Of a stretch of 64,000 nt of DNA, positions 55,962-64,000 are shown piece after piece; positions within the stretch are counted from its first letter, which is position 1; every line of letters begins with the position of its first letter. Under the pieces are notes generated by a model. The model had not been told where the DNA came from. It saw nothing but the letters and a program-made list of their open reading frames with translations, and ran no database searches. Made by a program: the position numbers and the translations under genes. Source of the DNA: Burkholderiales bacterium 70-64 (lineage in GTDB: Bacteria; Pseudomonadota; Gammaproteobacteria; Burkholderiales; Burkholderiaceae_E); assembly GCA_001898645.1 (NCBI GenBank), contig MKUQ01000004.1, forward strand, positions 186,001 to 250,000, in the 5' to 3' direction.

Positions 55962-58097
<2,136 letters not shown>

Positions 58098-58191: not shown

Positions 58192-59841
58192 CTACGCCGG
58201 CCGCCAGCGCGCCTGCGCATCGACCGCCGCGCGCCCCTCGTCGCGCAGCTTGAGCAGGTGCGCCGTCAGCGAGCGCTTGGCCACCGGATACAGGATCGGA
58301 TCGACGTCGTCGTAGGCGAGCTTCACCAGCTCGTCGAGGGTGCCTTCGCGGAGGCGGTCCAGGGCGCCCACCACCTTGGCCTCGCGGGCCATCCGGTGGG
58401 CGATCAGGCGGGCGATCTCGGTCTTGCCGCGCGCGATCACGTGGCCGTGCGCCGGCAGGATGTACTCCAGCGGCTCGGCCGCCAGGCGCTCCAGCGAAGC
58501 GACGTAGGCGCGCATGTCACCGTCGGGCGGGTCGATCACCGTGGTCGAGCCGTTCAGGATGTGGTCGCCGGCAAAGAGCAGCCCGTCCTCCTCGAGCAGC
58601 AGGCATACGTGGTGCTCGGCGTGGCCCGGCGTATGCAGCACGCGCAGCGTCGAGTCGCCGGCATGCAGCCGCGTGCCGTCCTCGAGCGTGGTATCGGGCC
58701 GGAACGTCCACGCCGGATCGAAGCCCGGTCCGCTCGGGCGCCCGGCGATGGGCGCGCCGGTGCGCCGCTGCAGCGGCACGGCTCCCGGCGCGTGGTCGGG
58801 GTGCCCGTGCGTGCACACGATGGTGCGCAGCCCGTCGCCGACGAACGCGGCGATGCGCTCGATGTGCGCCGGATCGTCCGGGCCCGGGTCGATCACGATC
58901 CACTGTCCGGGTTCGCCCACGAAGTAGGTGTTGGTGCCGGGGCCGGTCATGCGCCCCGGATTGGGGGCGGTCAGGCGGTGCACGTTGCGCAGCAGCGGCA
59001 CCACCTGTTCCGACTGCCAGTCCAGCGTGTGCGCCACCTGCCCGTCGGGGTCGACCAGCTCCAGCTCGCCGTAGGGCTCTTCGCTCTCGCTGAAGCGTTC
59101 GATGCGCCCGCGCAGCCAGCCGGCGCGCGGGCATGAGGTCCACACCCGGGCCTGCTGCTCGCGCGCGTGATCGAGCACCTCCCCGACGCTGCCGAAGCGC
59201 GTGAGCTGGCGCAGCGTGCGGATGGTCGGGAAGATGATGTTGAACTCGCCGCGCTCGTGGCGCGCCAGCCCCTCGGCAGGCCGGACCCACGTCGGCTCGA
59301 ACTGCTCGGCGTCGTCGGCCACCGGCTGCTGGTACGCCGGCATGCGGGCCACGAAGAAGCGCGCATCGAAGCGCCGCGGCAGGTCGCGGTCGGTGATCCA
59401 GTGGCTGAACCAGTGCACCTCGTCCAGCGCCAGGCGCGCATCGTGGGCCGCGATCTGCCCCAGGAGGTCCGCGTCGTGCGCGCGCCGCAGGCGGGCGGCG
59501 AGCCGTGCGATGCGCTCGGCTCCGCCGCCATGTGCCAGCAGGATGCCCAGCTCCTCGAACGCCTCGCGCACCGCCGCCGTGGCATAGGCGAGGATCTCGT
59601 CGCCCTCGTCGCCGCGCGTGCGGCTGAATTCGCGCGCACGCGGCGAGGCGTCGCTCGCATCGACCGCGCCGCCGGGGAAGACGTAGGCGCCCGGGGCGAA
59701 GCTGGCCGACAGCGAGCGCCGGGTCATGAGCACCTCGGGCCCCGCGTCGGAGTCGCGCAGCAGCAGAATGGTGGCGGCCGGCCGCGGGGCGGCGGGCTCG
59801 CGCCAGGTGCGGAGTCGTTTCTCGGATCGAACCATGATCAT
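58192..59841 (-). CDS. Nudix hydrolase-metallo-beta-lactamase fusion protein
   Basis: 549 aa. Residues 1-240 are a Nudix domain of the NUDT19 type: AATILLLRDS, FPGGAVD, a long insert, then the helix AAVREAFEELGILL. Residues 270-549 are a metallo-beta-lactamase domain, LACTB2-like: GPGTNTYFVG, VCTHGHPDHAPGA (metal site near residue 345), TPGHAEHHVCLLLEEDGLLFAGDHIL and ILPAHGHVI. The Nudix part may cleave CoA or nucleotide diphosphates; the beta-lactamase part may hydrolyse thioesters or RNA. It is translationally coupled to an enoyl-CoA hydratase gene, which supports acyl-CoA turnover. A Met two codons in is an alternative start. Confidence 0.88.
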   Translation of the reverse strand: MIMVRSEKRLRTWREPAAPRPAATILLLRDSDAGPEVLMTRRSLSASFAPGAYVFPGGAVDASDASPRAREFSRTRGDEGDEILAYATAAVREAFEELGILLAHGGGAERIARLAARLRRAHDADLLGQIAAHDARLALDEVHWFSHWITDRDLPRRFDARFFVARMPAYQQPVADDAEQFEPTWVRPAEGLARHERGEFNIIFPTIRTLRQLTRFGSVGEVLDHAREQQARVWTSCPRAGWLRGRIERFSESEEPYGELELVDPDGQVAHTLDWQSEQVVPLLRNVHRLTAPNPGRMTGPGTNTYFVGEPGQWIVIDPGPDDPAHIERIAAFVGDGLRTIVCTHGHPDHAPGAVPLQRRTGAPIAGRPSGPGFDPAWTFRPDTTLEDGTRLHAGDSTLRVLHTPGHAEHHVCLLLEEDGLLFAGDHILNGSTTVIDPPDGDMRAYVASLERLAAEPLEYILPAHGHVIARGKTEIARLIAHRMAREAKVVGALDRLREGTLDELVKLAYDDVDPILYPVAKRSLTAHLLKLRDEGRAAVDAQARWRPA

Positions 59842-60767
59842 TGTTCCGTCGTTCGCAAAGAGGAATCGGGGTCCGTGAACGGGTCCCGCGAGCCTGCCGG
59901 CGCCGAGCCGGGCCCGTTCGGGCCTGCGGCCGGCGTGCCGTGGCGGCCGGCGCCCGAGGCGAAGCGGGCGGCGCCGGCGTAGCCTTCGCCGGCCTCGAGC
60001 GTGCGCAGGCCCAGGGCGAATTCGTTCGCCAGCGCCTGCTCCAGCGTCAGCCCCTCCTGCTCGTAGGCCGAGCGCCGGTCGCTGCGCAGGCAGGCCTGCG
60101 GCAGGGCCGCCAGTTCGTGCGCCAGCGCGATGGCCGTGCCGCGCGCCTGTCCATGGGCCACCACGCGGTTGGCCAGGCCGATGCGCTCGGCCTCCTCGGC
60201 GTTCACCGCGCGACCGGTCAGGATGAGGTCGAGCGCGCGCGACAGGCCGATCAGGCGCGGCAGACGCACCGTGCCGCCGTCGATCAGCGGCACGCCGAAG
60301 CGCCGGCAGAACACTCCCAGCGTGGCCGACGCCTCCACGATGCGCAGGTCGCACCACAGCGCCAGCTCCAGCCCGCCGGCCACCGCGTAGCCCGACACCG
60401 CCGCGATCACCGGCTTGCCGAGCACCATGCGGCTGGGGCCCATCGGCCCGTCGCCGTCGGGTTCCAGGCGGTTGCGCCGCGCCGCGTCGGCCATCGCCTT
60501 GAGATCGGCGCCGGCGCAGAAGTGGCCGTTGGCTCCGCAGAACACCGCGACGCTGGCCGACGGATCGGCGTCGAAGCGCGCGAACGCCGCCGCCAGCGCC
60601 TCGGCAGCGGCGCGATCGACCGCATTGCGCGCCTGCGGGCGCGACAGCGTCACGATCGTCACCGGACCGTCGTGCTCGACGGTGACGGCGTCACGATCGC
60701 CGCCGTCGAACGCGACGGTGGCGGCGGCCGCTGACGCAGCCGCATCGGGATGCACGGGCTCGGACAC
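59838..60767 (-). CDS. Enoyl-CoA hydratase/isomerase (crotonase family)
   Basis: 309 aa. VTIVTLSRPQARNAVD begins the crotonase fold; GHFCAGADLKAM and AVSGYAVAGGLELALWCDLRIV form the oxyanion hole, and FGVPLIDGGTVRLPRLIGL is at the place of one catalytic Glu, where Asp is found. An N-terminal Ala/Asp-rich stretch and a 45-residue Gly/Pro/Ser tail are extra. Probably in fatty acid or aromatic acyl-CoA degradation with the FadJ-like neighbour 60 bp upstream. Confidence 0.88.
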   Translation of the reverse strand: MSEPVHPDAAASAAAATVAFDGGDRDAVTVEHDGPVTIVTLSRPQARNAVDRAAAEALAAAFARFDADPSASVAVFCGANGHFCAGADLKAMADAARRNRLEPDGDGPMGPSRMVLGKPVIAAVSGYAVAGGLELALWCDLRIVEASATLGVFCRRFGVPLIDGGTVRLPRLIGLSRALDLILTGRAVNAEEAERIGLANRVVAHGQARGTAIALAHELAALPQACLRSDRRSAYEQEGLTLEQALANEFALGLRTLEAGEGYAGAARFASGAGRHGTPAAGPNGPGSAPAGSRDPFTDPDSSLRTTEQ

Positions 60768-60827
60768 GACACGGTCTCCTGTATCGCCGCTGCCGGGGAA
60801 TCGGCCGGATCCGCCGGCGGGGTGTCG

Positions 60828-63176
60828 CTAGAGCGGCTTGCCCTCCGAGGCGTGCCGCAGCAGCAGCGCCGGCGGGGCGAAGCGCACGCCATAACGCTGG
60901 GCGAGTTCCTGCGCGCGCGCAACGAAGCGCTCGACGCCGACATGGTTGATGTACTGGATCGGGCCGCCGGTCCAGGCCGGGAAACCCCAGCCGAACAGTG
61001 CTCCGATGTTGGCGTCGCGCGGAGAGGAGATCACGCCTTCCTCGAGGCAACGCGCGGTCTCGATCGCCTGCACGTAGAGCAGCCGGTCCGCGATGTCGCC
61101 GGGCGCGATCGCGCGCGCGCCGCGCTCGAACACCTTCAGCCCTGGCCACAGCGTCTTCTCGCTCCCCTCGGGATACTCGTAGAAGCCCCCGCCGTAGGCG
61201 CGGCCCATCCGCTTGAAGCCGTGCGCCATCTTCTCCAGGACGTAGACCGCGCTCTCCGGGATGCGCCGGCTCTTCACCGCCTGGGAGCGGGGCTTCGCGG
61301 CAGCCTCGTGGCGGTGCGCGCGGCCGTGCTCGTGGCGGTGCTCGTGTTCGTGACCCTGTCCGTGCTCATGATCGTGCCCGTGTTCGTGCCCGTGTTCGTG
61401 GCCGTGGCCGTGGCCGTGGCCGTGCTCATGATCGTGTTCGTGTACATGCCCATGCTCGTGTCCATGGCCATGCCCATGCCCGTGCTCCCGATCGAGGTCC
61501 GCCATCTCCTGGTGCAGCACGTCGTCGGCCAGCTTCAGCGAGACCTCGTCGAGCACGGCCAGCGGGCCGACCGGCATGCCGATCTGCCATCCGGTGTTCT
61601 CGATCAGCGCCGCCGGCACGCCCTCGCCGAGCAGGGCCATGCCTTCGTTGACGAAGGTGCCGAAGACCCGGCTGGTGTAGAAGCCGCGGCTGTCGTTCAC
61701 GATGATCGGGGTCTTGCCGATCTGCAGCACGAAGTCGTACGCGCGCGCCAGCGTCGCCGTCGAGGTGGCCGCTCCCCTGATGATCTCGACCAGGGGCATG
61801 CGATCGACCGGCGAGAAGAAGTGCATGCCGACGAAGCGATCGGGACGCTGCGAGGCTTCGGCCAGGCCGGTGATCGGCAGCGTCGAAGTGTTGGACGCGA
61901 AGATCGCCTCCGGCGCGAGGACCGCTTCCGCCTCTCGGGTGACCTTCGCCTTGATCTCGCGGTTCTCGAACACCGCCTCGATGACCAGCTCGCAGCCGGC
62001 GAGGTCACGGATGTCGGCGCTGGGGCGGATCGCCTCGAGCACTTGCTCCGCCCGGGCAGCGGGCATACGGCCCTTCTCGACCCGCCCGGCCAGCAGTTTC
62101 GCTGACCACGCCTTGCCCTGTTCGGCCTTCGCCAGGTCGACGTCCTTCAGCACGCAGGACACGCCGCGGCTCGCGCAGGCCCACGCGATGCTGGCCCCCA
62201 TCATGCCGGCGCCGAGGATACCCACGCGCGCGACGGCCGGCCGCGCGGGTTCGGCAGGCCGACCCTTGCCGGCCTTGATCTCGTTGAGCTGGAAGAAGAG
62301 GGTGCCGATCATGTTCTTGGCGACCCGGCCGGTGGCGAGCTTCGTCATGTAGCGCGACTCGATGCGCATCGCGGTGTCGAAGTCGACCTGCGCGCCCTCG
62401 ACGGCTGCCGAGAGGATCGCCTCGGGCGCCGGGAGGTTGCCGCGCGTCTGCCGCTGCAGCATCGCCGGCGCGATCGCCAGCATGGCGGCGACGGCCGGGC
62501 TCGACGGCGTGCCGCCCGGGATCCGGTGCTTGGGGTCGTCCCACGGCTGGCGCGGCTGCGGATGCGCGTCGATCCAGGCGCGGGCGCTCGCCTGCAACTC
62601 ATCGCGGTCGCGCGCGAGCCCGTCGATGAGGCCCATCTCGAGAGCCTGGGCCGGCGACAGCCGGCGCCCCTCGGTCAGAAGCTCGATCGCGCGCTGCAGG
62701 CCGAGCAGCCGCACCGACTTGACCACGCCGCCCGCGCCCGGCAGCAGCCCGAGCGTGACTTCCGGAAAGCCGATCTGGATCGTGCGATCGTCGAGGCACA
62801 GGCGCGCGTGGCACGACAGCGCGATCTCGAGGCCGCCGCCCAGCGCGCTTCCGTTGATCGCGGCAACCACCGGGCGCCCGAGCCTCTCGATGCGCCGCAG
62901 CCGCGCCTTCAGCTCCTCGAGCTCGCGGAAGAAGCCGGCCGCGTCGTCCGGCTGCACGGAGATCAGGGCCTGCAGATCGCCGCCCGCGAAGAACGTCTGC
63001 TTGGCCGAAGTGACGATGACGCCCCGGATGTCCGCCTTCTCGGCCTCGAGCCGCTCGACCGTCGCCCCGAGGTCGGCCAGGAACGCCGCATTCATCGTGT
63101 TGACCGGCTGACCGGGCGCGTCGATGACGAGCGTCACGACGCCGTCGGCGCCCTTCTCGTAGCGGATGCTGGACAT
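60828..63176 (-). CDS. FadJ-like bifunctional enoyl-CoA hydratase / 3-hydroxyacyl-CoA dehydrogenase with His-rich insert
   Basis: 782 aa. Residues 1-190: crotonase domain (FFAGGDLQALI, INGSALGGGLEIALSCHARL, PEVTLGLLPGAGG with the catalytic Glu pair). Residues about 313-500: NAD-binding 3-hydroxyacyl-CoA dehydrogenase domain, GAGMMGASIAW and FASNTSTLPITGLAEASQRPDRFVGMHFFSPV. A C-terminal 3HCDH region follows. Residues 565-623 are a histidine-rich insert (28 His) inside the C-terminal region, between VLHQEMADLD and SAVYVLEKMAHGF. It carries out steps two and three of beta-oxidation. The start at 63176 (MSSIRYEK) is chosen over an upstream Met. Confidence 0.93.
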   Translation of the reverse strand: MSSIRYEKGADGVVTLVIDAPGQPVNTMNAAFLADLGATVERLEAEKADIRGVIVTSAKQTFFAGGDLQALISVQPDDAAGFFRELEELKARLRRIERLGRPVVAAINGSALGGGLEIALSCHARLCLDDRTIQIGFPEVTLGLLPGAGGVVKSVRLLGLQRAIELLTEGRRLSPAQALEMGLIDGLARDRDELQASARAWIDAHPQPRQPWDDPKHRIPGGTPSSPAVAAMLAIAPAMLQRQTRGNLPAPEAILSAAVEGAQVDFDTAMRIESRYMTKLATGRVAKNMIGTLFFQLNEIKAGKGRPAEPARPAVARVGILGAGMMGASIAWACASRGVSCVLKDVDLAKAEQGKAWSAKLLAGRVEKGRMPAARAEQVLEAIRPSADIRDLAGCELVIEAVFENREIKAKVTREAEAVLAPEAIFASNTSTLPITGLAEASQRPDRFVGMHFFSPVDRMPLVEIIRGAATSTATLARAYDFVLQIGKTPIIVNDSRGFYTSRVFGTFVNEGMALLGEGVPAALIENTGWQIGMPVGPLAVLDEVSLKLADDVLHQEMADLDREHGHGHGHGHEHGHVHEHDHEHGHGHGHGHEHGHEHGHDHEHGQGHEHEHRHEHGRAHRHEAAAKPRSQAVKSRRIPESAVYVLEKMAHGFKRMGRAYGGGFYEYPEGSEKTLWPGLKVFERGARAIAPGDIADRLLYVQAIETARCLEEGVISSPRDANIGALFGWGFPAWTGGPIQYINHVGVERFVARAQELAQRYGVRFAPPALLLRHASEGKPL
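61308..61484. repeat. Simple-sequence tract encoding the histidine-rich insert
   Basis: Imperfect 6-bp units (CATGGC, CACGAG and variants on the coding strand) repeat across 177 bp. Read on the minus strand they give alternating His with Gly, Glu or Asp. Codons for His vary between CAT and CAC, so the tract is not a recent pure expansion. Repeat length may vary between strains. Confidence 0.9.
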
Positions 63177-63260
63177 GCAATCTCCGGTCCGGCTGCAGTG
63201 ATGGGAAAGACCCATCATAAACCGTCGGGAAAGGCCTCCCGAGGGCGCGCCGGCGGGCGC

Positions 63261-64000
63261 TCAGATCGGCAGCGTGAGCCCGAGGGTGCGGTTGGCCAGG
63301 GCCGGCGCCTTGCCGAGCAGCAGCTCGATGGTCGCCGGGTCGCGCACCAGCATCATGCTGTTGGAAACCGCGAGCAGGCGCTCGCGATCGAGCGGGCGGC
63401 AAAGGCCATAGCCCTGCGCGTAGTCCACGTGCAGCTCGAGCAGCGAGCGCACGATCTCCGCGTTCTCGGCCCACTCGGCCACGCAGCCCATCCCGAGCTC
63501 GTGGGCCAGCTCGACGATGGCGCGCGTGATCGCGAAGTTGGCGGGGTTGGAATTGACGTCGCGGATGAAATTGCCGTCGATCTTCACCAGGTCGGCGGGA
63601 ATCTCCTTCAGGTAGCTGAAGGACGTGTAGCCGGCCCCGAAGTCGTCCAGGGCGACCATGGCGCCGCACGACTTCACGCCGTCGACGAAGCGGCGCGTCG
63701 TGTTCAGGTCGTAGAGCGCCACGCTCTCGGTGATCTCGAAACAGATCCGCTTCGTCGATTCGGGATGCTCCCGGATCATCGCGATGGTGTTCTGCAGGAA
63801 CTTCTCGTCGTTGAGCGACGCCCCGCTGAGGTTCAGCGTGCAGAAGTCGACGCGGTCGCGATGCGCGGGCTGCTTGTCCAGCCATTCGAGCGTGCTGCGC
63901 AGCACCCATCGGTCGATCTGCGTCATCAGGCCGTTGCGCTCGGCGGCCGGGATGAAGCGCGCCGGCGGAAGCACGTTGCCGTTGCCGTCGCGCATGCGGA
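63261..64000 (-). CDS. EAL-domain (cyclic-di-GMP phosphodiesterase) protein, C-terminal part
   Basis: The gene enters from the right edge, so its N-terminus and the EAL motif itself are outside the window. Visible: FIPAAERNGLMTQIDRWVLRSTLEWL, LNLSGASLND, CFEITESVALYDL, LDDFGAGYTSFSYLKEIPADLVKIDGNFI (DDFGAGY with the metal and Lys catalytic residues) and CVAEWAENAEIVRSL, where the usual EGVE appears as EWAE. Key acidic residues are kept, so it may be active. Upstream sensory or GGDEF domains cannot be judged. Confidence 0.9.
   Translation of the reverse strand, partial: RMRDGNGNVLPPARFIPAAERNGLMTQIDRWVLRSTLEWLDKQPAHRDRVDFCTLNLSGASLNDEKFLQNTIAMIREHPESTKRICFEITESVALYDLNTTRRFVDGVKSCGAMVALDDFGAGYTSFSYLKEIPADLVKIDGNFIRDVNSNPANFAITRAIVELAHELGMGCVAEWAENAEIVRSLLELHVDYAQGYGLCRPLDRERLLAVSNSMMLVRDPATIELLLGKAPALANRTLGLTLPI

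Follow-up and report, generated by a model that had tools for sequence, protein, structure and literature searches.

Why should an enzyme of fatty acid oxidation carry a dense run of histidines, and what does such a run do there? The question is posed by a gene in a 64,000-nucleotide stretch of the Burkholderiales bacterium 70-64 genome (contig MKUQ01000004.1, positions 186,001 to 250,000; this whole stretch is hereafter called the window), where the coding sequence for a FadB/FadJ-type alpha subunit of 782 amino acids (60828..63176, minus strand) contains a His-rich tract at residues 565-623 (61308..61484, minus strand). A sequence-only reading of the window had described 28 His in 59 residues inside a FadJ-like protein, which residue counts and Pfam domains confirmed, and had offered metal storage or sensing, a link between fatty acid oxidation and metal levels, or neutral repeat expansion as explanations. 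The key fact lies outside these coordinates: many relatives have lost the enzyme and kept the tract. We consider it probable that the tract is a selected, disordered HxH loop, which serves as a buffer, store or delivery arm for divalent metals in the cytosol.

The tract and the enzyme that carries it

The tract comprises 25 overlapping HxH steps, with only 8 His across the remaining 723 residues of the protein, and shuffling the whole protein 2000 times never gave more than 11 His in any stretch of 59 residues. It starts 5 residues past the Pfam match to the 3HCDH C-terminal domain, which covers the helices before the tract (61497..61685, minus strand; residues 498-560, or 512-574 if counted from Met1), and lies within the helical C-terminal part of the protein. 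Residues are numbered here from Met15; the listed open reading frame (ORF) opens 14 codons earlier, with Met1 at position 63218. Met15 appears to be the likelier start, because a Met is found at the aligned place in all 22 other full tract genes of the family (the Met nearest to that place having been picked), and because in 8 of these 22 a stop codon occurs within the 14 codons before it. A plus-strand ORF made of V/M/F repeats (60750-62105) is the mirror of the His tract in the same DNA.

Three Pfam domains, all far above their cut-offs, follow one another in the window protein: the enoyl-CoA hydratase domain ECH_1 (62571..63143, minus strand), the NAD-binding domain 3HCDH_N (61692..62225, minus strand) and 3HCDH. 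The NCBIfam equivalog cut-offs were not reached (523 vs 869 bits for FadJ, NF008363; 488 vs 870 bits for FadB, NF008727), and the best 25 of 85 NCBIfam matches were all to ECH or HAD. The best sequence match in the PDB was the alpha subunit (FadB) of the Mycobacterium tuberculosis trifunctional enzyme (TFE; 4b3h, 7o1m and others; E 1.7e-220), which has the same domains. Glu139 of the window protein (62760-62762) aligns with the Ala of the alpha-E141A mutant chain of TFE (7o1i), and His452 (61821-61823), located in a G-M-H-F-F-S-P motif, is the likely counterpart of the H462 named in the titles of other TFE entries. Both belong to a set of five residues, E117 and E139 in the hydratase and S428, H452 and E464 in the dehydrogenase, all of which are kept in 23 of 23 full tract genes (the window's gene included), in 3 of 3 tract-free genes of genus g16 and in 14 of 14 outgroups. 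We take these five to be the catalytic residues of the two enzymes, with the help of PDB entry titles. Judged by its domains and residues, the window protein is an intact FadB/FadJ-type alpha subunit with both enzyme active sites kept.

Where the window protein has the tract, 4b3h has a linker of only about 16 residues, between residues 578 and 595 of the chain. The earlier remark that a His-rich, metal-binding-like insert is odd for a 3-hydroxyacyl-CoA dehydrogenase holds. The AlphaFold2 model of the window protein, made with 29 relatives, had a mean predicted local distance difference test score (pLDDT) of 87, a predicted template modelling score (pTM) of 0.84 and a single long low-confidence stretch (pLDDT <50). 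This stretch, residues 568-632 (61281..61475, minus strand), is predicted to be a disordered loop between helix 547-566 and helix 641-653.

Relatives that kept the tract without the enzyme

Among 74 genomes of the window's family (classes tallied by hand from the loci read), 25 encode the full enzyme with the tract, including one with a broken frame, one split between contigs, one cut at the N-terminus and one with a weak tract of 12-13 His. A further 30 have the tract in a gene without one or both catalytic domains, which we call gutted; in six, the contig ends in the tract and the other half is unreadable (G016, G018, G024, G045, G056 and G105); three, all of genus g16, have the full enzyme without a tract; and no orthologue was found in ten (G006, G009, G028, G029, G030, G038, G055, G059, G106 and G107). 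The full query was matched at E 1e-120 or better in 28 of the 74 genomes and its C-terminal third at 1e-10 in 72, in several only by distant paralogues, and no full-length match at 1e-120 was obtained in G001, G002, G007 and G042 (13 best candidates scored per genome). The tract ranges from 32 to 200 residues in length. Contigs often end in or beside it (G043, in addition to the six above), which implies that the tract is under-reported in draft genomes.

For residue counts, the full set (n = 23) consisted of the window gene, 21 loci and L039, with G004 (frame broken), G035 (N-terminal cut) and G043 (contig-split) excluded, while the gutted set (n = 28) excluded L227 (cut by a contig end) and L225 (no in-frame start seen); the latter, from G031, is a tract ORF without an in-frame Met at the usual start, where a run of C is found. 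Duplicate entries of these genes in named records, including most of L038-L059, were removed before counting. The 14 outgroups were chosen for having both halves, and an unpicked set was formed by the 21 loci found with the C-terminal third. Two metagenome-assembled genome (MAG) records with names that look wrong, L059 (titled Bordetella parapertussis) and L039 (Actinomycetes bacterium), hold loci of this family.

Beyond the family, a sample of 399 genomes of the order yielded 32 matches, none starting before query residue 145, past the tract, and the 21 of them that were read have 9-13 residues with 0-1 His at the tract site. A class sample of 369 genomes gave 16 matches besides the window's own genome, all from residue 165 or later. 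Both scans sampled at strict thresholds, which strongly diverged modules would escape. No earlier report of this tract was found in literature searches of open-licence papers.

The dehydrogenase His is present in none of the 28 gutted coding sequences: the NAD-binding domain was undetected at E 1e-3 in 27, and L230 has Val at that place. Both hydratase Glu are kept in one sequence only, L215, where the hydratase is retained (62% identity) and the NAD-binding domain was undetected. Eroded hydratase remnants are seen in L228 and L241; in L210, L211 and L230 the hydratase is missing and the NAD domain survives in eroded form (weak matches). Thirteen other gutted genes, of 274-313 residues, amount to little more than the tract with its preceding helices and the C-terminal part, and the remaining gutted members of genus g2, which includes a MAG named Lautropia (L077, the same contig as L230), are 369-537 residues long. 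In genus g11, L246 and L247 (210 and 202 residues long) are without His at the inner site, carry 27 and 24 His, respectively, in a tract at the N-terminus and have lost most of the C-terminal part; what is kept there appears to be the His content, not its place.

In the stand-alone members scanned, the 3HCDH C-terminal domain was the sole Pfam match over the cut-off, and such proteins could be annotated as dehydrogenases despite having no NAD-binding domain. Matches of gutted relatives to ZIP were weak, below the Pfam cut-off and overlapping the tract. The AlphaFold2 model of the gutted L212 (312 amino acids, 20 relatives; pLDDT 77, pTM 0.73) has well-predicted helices and a low-confidence tract, and its best fold matches were again the M. 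tuberculosis TFE alpha chains (Foldseek E 2e-9, 28% identity). The gutted genes are unlikely to be assembly artefacts, because several of them sit in well-assembled genomes (G033 with 1 contig, G002 with 3, G048 and G058 with about 10). A separate gene nearby for the lost half was also considered and rejected: a tblastn search of the fetched gutted loci (L210-L249) found neither the hydratase nor the NAD domain elsewhere in them at E 1e-4, save for a match in L242 to the separate ECH gene.

The gutted genes keep the same locus as the window gene. Downstream of the tract gene, 34 of the 35 gutted or contig-cut loci have a gene with NUDIX and metallo-beta-lactamase-fold domains (NUDIX-MBL), the polynucleotide phosphorylase gene pnp, or both; the exception is L227, which breaks off within the tract and has the EAL gene on its upstream side.

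Loss of the enzyme part happened more than once within the family. An unrooted pnp tree with 42 rows requires 6 changes of the full/gutted label (careful tree; 5-6 in bootstrap trees and 5 in a quick tree), or 5 by parsimony if six doubtful rows are left unlabelled, and the starred (well-supported) branches alone force 2. None of 200 bootstrap trees placed the gutted rows on one side of a branch, and a tree holding 20 gutted rows together was rejected by the approximately unbiased (AU) test (p 0.007), for which the group was named before that tree, but after the first tree had been viewed. L240 was too short for the pnp trees; L059 and L074 ('other') were dropped from the careful tree and the AU test, and L213, L238, L242, L243, L244 and L248 were unlabelled as doubtful in the AU run. 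In the window's genus, a gutted clade (L210-L213, support 100/96; L213 is contig-cut) is sister to a full clade (99/97). The full enzyme would be the ancestral state, because the hydratase is present in 20 of the 21 tract-free relatives outside the family that were found with the C-terminal third alone.

Selection on the tract and its candidate role

Outside the tract, the ratio of non-synonymous to synonymous substitution rates (dN/dS) was 0.09-0.36 for the module in 12 gutted pairs, some of which share a gene, and 0.05-0.20 in three full-gene pairs (own Nei-Gojobori script; dS exceeded 1 in three pairs, for which the values are unreliable). Within the tract, positions with His at both i-2 and i+2 are occupied by His in 481 of 513 cases in the 23 full genes and in 599 of 688 in the 28 gutted ones, a measure that covers His-flanked positions only and counts sequences, not independent events. 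The codons used there are CAC and CAT in 297 and 184 cases (38% CAT) in full genes and in 362 and 237 (40% CAT) in gutted ones; Tyr (TAY) was found in neither set and Arg (CGY) only 4 and 3 times, respectively, though both are reached by equally easy transitions. With third positions mixed and first and second positions nearly fixed, the His itself is conserved by selection. The spacers are acid-rich, with 138 Asp and 89 Glu among 582 residues in full genes and 201 Asp and 87 Glu among 766 in gutted ones.

The helices on either side of the tract carry two further conserved pairs, Asp551-x3-His555 before it (61512..61526, minus strand) and Glu648-x3-His652 on, or at the end of, the helix after it (61221..61235, minus strand; Y-V-x-E-K-M-x-H-G in tract-bearing members), both invariant in the lineage. 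The four residues occur together in all 54 lineage members (23 full, 28 gutted and 3 tract-free g16 genes) and in none of 45 distinct readable outsiders (14 outgroups and 35 further tract-free relatives, minus two duplicates, the L036 and L037 genes, and two unreadable ones); His555 is found in 0 of 14 outgroups. All 51 tract-bearing members, and none of the 3 g16 genes, have Tyr645 and Gly653. Because the two helices flank one loop, His555 and His652, each about 11 residues from it, could face each other.

Since the tract is kept in gutted genes under purifying selection, with its His conserved and with the flanking D-x3-H/E-x3-H residues, it has a selected function separable from beta-oxidation. 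The homologue search showed the tract to be family-wide and under selection, so that a strain-specific expansion, which would have counted against the sequence-only reading, does not hold.

The metal-handling loop would be built as follows. Inserted between two helices in the C-terminal dehydrogenase domain of a FadB-type alpha subunit, the HxH loop would bind divalent metal ions of the cytosol, most likely Zn, Ni or Co. Beneath this mobile loop, the flanking helices would offer a folded landing site made up of their D-x3-H and E-x3-H residues. We infer metal binding from the composition of the tract, the flanking residues and analogy; the metals named and the two-tier site are likewise candidates. 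The window protein, with both active sites kept, would have two jobs, and elsewhere in the family, where the enzyme part was repeatedly lost, the tract and the C-terminal module would have been kept as a stand-alone protein. The chances seem about even that a metal-homeostasis family was made from a beta-oxidation enzyme in the ancestor of one Burkholderiales family, by acquiring first the D-x3-H/E-x3-H site in the C-terminal dehydrogenase domain and then a polyhistidine antenna that joins the two helices, followed by independent losses of the hydratase and NAD-binding domains in several lineages, which left a cytosolic buffer or chaperone of 200-540 residues. We know of no other beta-oxidation enzyme that took a path to a His-rich module.

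Alternating His/Asp/Glu tracts are a feature of metal-handling proteins, as in HypB, UreE, SlyD and the loops of ZIP and cation diffusion facilitator transporters; unlike these, the window protein has none of their domains among its Pfam matches, which are to ECH and 3HCDH families only. More generally, His-rich low-complexity regions of prokaryotes are, according to passages of PMC6821194, enriched in nickel-binding and metal-transport proteins. Helicobacter offers a similar case of lineage-specific, nickel-related His-rich proteins in Hpn/Hpn-2 and HspA, the last being a conserved protein with an added part, namely a GroES homologue with a His- and Cys-rich end (passages of PMC4671568). In contrast to our family, they have other folds and are tied to urease and hydrogenase, which many family genomes lack. 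For mycobacterial GroEL1, a copy of a house-keeping protein, a role of the His-rich tail in metal homeostasis has been proposed (PMC10170517), but the tail is terminal and sits on a chaperonin, whereas the tract described here is a loop within an enzyme, and relatives of that enzyme have lost their catalytic domains. Of the same enzyme class is Legionella Lpg1596, an enoyl-CoA hydratase/3-hydroxyacyl-CoA dehydrogenase homologue that binds Ni-NTA (nickel-nitrilotriacetic acid) resin; it differs in having 2.38% His and no consecutive-His run, a surface cluster being proposed instead (passages of PMC12211046).

Strong urease-alpha matches (E 1e-30 or better) were obtained in 37 of the 74 family genomes and not in the window genome; by class, they were found in 20 of 30 gutted, 11 of 25 full-tract, 0 of 3 tract-free enzyme, 6 of 10 no-orthologue and 0 of 6 contig-cut genomes. 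NiFe hydrogenase was over the cut-off in 13 of 74. A chaperone for a nickel enzyme was rejected for lack of a consistent link with urease or hydrogenase, a urease pattern within the window's genus excepted. The tract occurs both with and without these enzymes, which suits a buffer or store for divalent metals in general more than a chaperone dedicated to a single nickel enzyme. In the window genome, the codon pattern for five alternating His occurs at 35 places; besides the tract gene, it was taken for real in three HxHxHxHxH genes, two of them for transporters of the cation-diffusion type and one, at its start, for cytochrome oxidase subunit I (names by our own reading), and the remaining places were taken for stray frames.

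Several observations weigh against a role in metal handling. No client enzyme is apparent, urease and NiFe hydrogenase having no consistent link, and within the window's genus urease is present in 3 of 4 gutted-or-cut tract genomes (G001, G002 and G007, all gutted) vs 0 of 12 full ones, a pattern that tells against a general buffer or store. The neighbouring genes are not known metal genes, and no zinc- or nickel-regulation site was seen upstream of gutted genes in 30 loci inspected by eye, with no motif search; for L210 and L230 at least, the DNA inspected stopped short of the start codon. The gene is dispensable, as judged from the ten genomes in which none was found and the three that have the enzyme without the tract. 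Finally, the D-x3-H/E-x3-H set of the three tract-free g16 genes indicates that the set does not need the tract; it may have arisen before the tract or persisted after its loss, or it may be of use to the enzyme.

The alternative that survives best, although we consider it unlikely, is that the tract was selected for some other use of His, such as the binding of polyphosphate, nucleic acid or haem, pH-dependent assembly or phase separation. His alternating with Asp, Glu, Gly or Ala in a disordered loop would also suit pH-responsive behaviour, whereas the acid-rich spacers suit the binding of a cation better than that of a polyanion, and the D-x3-H/E-x3-H set speaks against this alternative as well. 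There is little to recommend the earlier proposal that the tract makes fatty acid oxidation respond to the metal level, as a sensor or brake on the enzyme: it is consistent with the junction of the loop to the dehydrogenase C-terminal domain and with the catalytic residues kept in the window gene and the 22 other full tract genes, but the tract outlives the enzyme in 30 of 74 genomes, in more than one clade, which keep it without a complete catalytic pair. As a general role this link is not supported; for the window's own, complete enzyme it is possible. Zinc delivery to the neighbouring NUDIX-MBL enzyme is less probable again, for its gene, which is downstream in the window and in 23 of the 35 gutted or contig-cut loci, was undetected at E 1e-12 in 8 g2 and 3 g11 loci, where the tract persists. 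Neutral repeat expansion tolerated on a surface loop, the weakest of the explanations, would suit the wide length range, the repeats of 6-24 bases detected in the DNA and the contigs that often end in the tract, but is strongly disfavoured by the codon pattern and by the retention of the tract in gutted genes under purifying selection.

If the module does bind metal, it would be an unrecognised metal buffer in these bacteria, and the complete enzyme of the window would show a second function starting as a loop on a working protein. The states are traceable at one conserved locus (tract-free enzyme, enzyme with tract, half-eroded enzyme, stand-alone module and module with an N-terminal tract), and the series suggests a way in which a metabolic enzyme changed its job.

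Neighbouring genes and upstream regions

In the window, the tract gene is preceded by a GGDEF/EAL gene, of which the 3' part is seen (63261..64000, minus strand; cut by the window end), and followed by a separate enoyl-CoA hydratase (ECH) gene (59838..60767, minus strand), found beside the tract gene in part of the relatives, and by the NUDIX-MBL gene (58192..59835, minus strand; start set by eye, ORF open to 60357). Then comes pnp on the opposite strand (55962..58097, plus strand; named by our own reading), the gene used for the family tree, which served as a syntenic anchor together with the GGDEF/EAL gene. By gene clustering (Pfam was run only on L060 and the window genome's copy), a thiolase gene is next upstream in the tract-free L056, L060 and L069 and in the tract-bearing L048 and L058; in the window genome, some 8 kb separate it from the tract gene, again upstream and on the same strand. 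L249 (G012:C2) is a second FadB-type gene, without the tract and preceded by a thiolase gene, in a genome that has a tract gene elsewhere. The tract-free relative in a Kitasatospora record (L073) shares about 56-58% identity with the N-terminal part of the window protein, which is high for another phylum. Near the locus, beside the GGDEF/EAL gene, L155 (5436-6326) and its syntenic relatives have a gene with a weak, sub-cut-off match to FeeM (N-acyl amino acid synthase).

Promoter-like TATGAT/TATCAT boxes recur upstream of several relatives (by eye). Just upstream of Met15 in the window, a perfect inverted repeat, TGATGGG-AAAGA-CCCATCA (63199-63217), overlaps a TATGAT box on the minus strand (63214-63219), both noted by eye. 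Most g2 loci share an upstream stretch around AATACAAT (by eye), and several of them (L231-L236) have a common stretch like GGTCAACAAATACAATG upstream of the tract gene.

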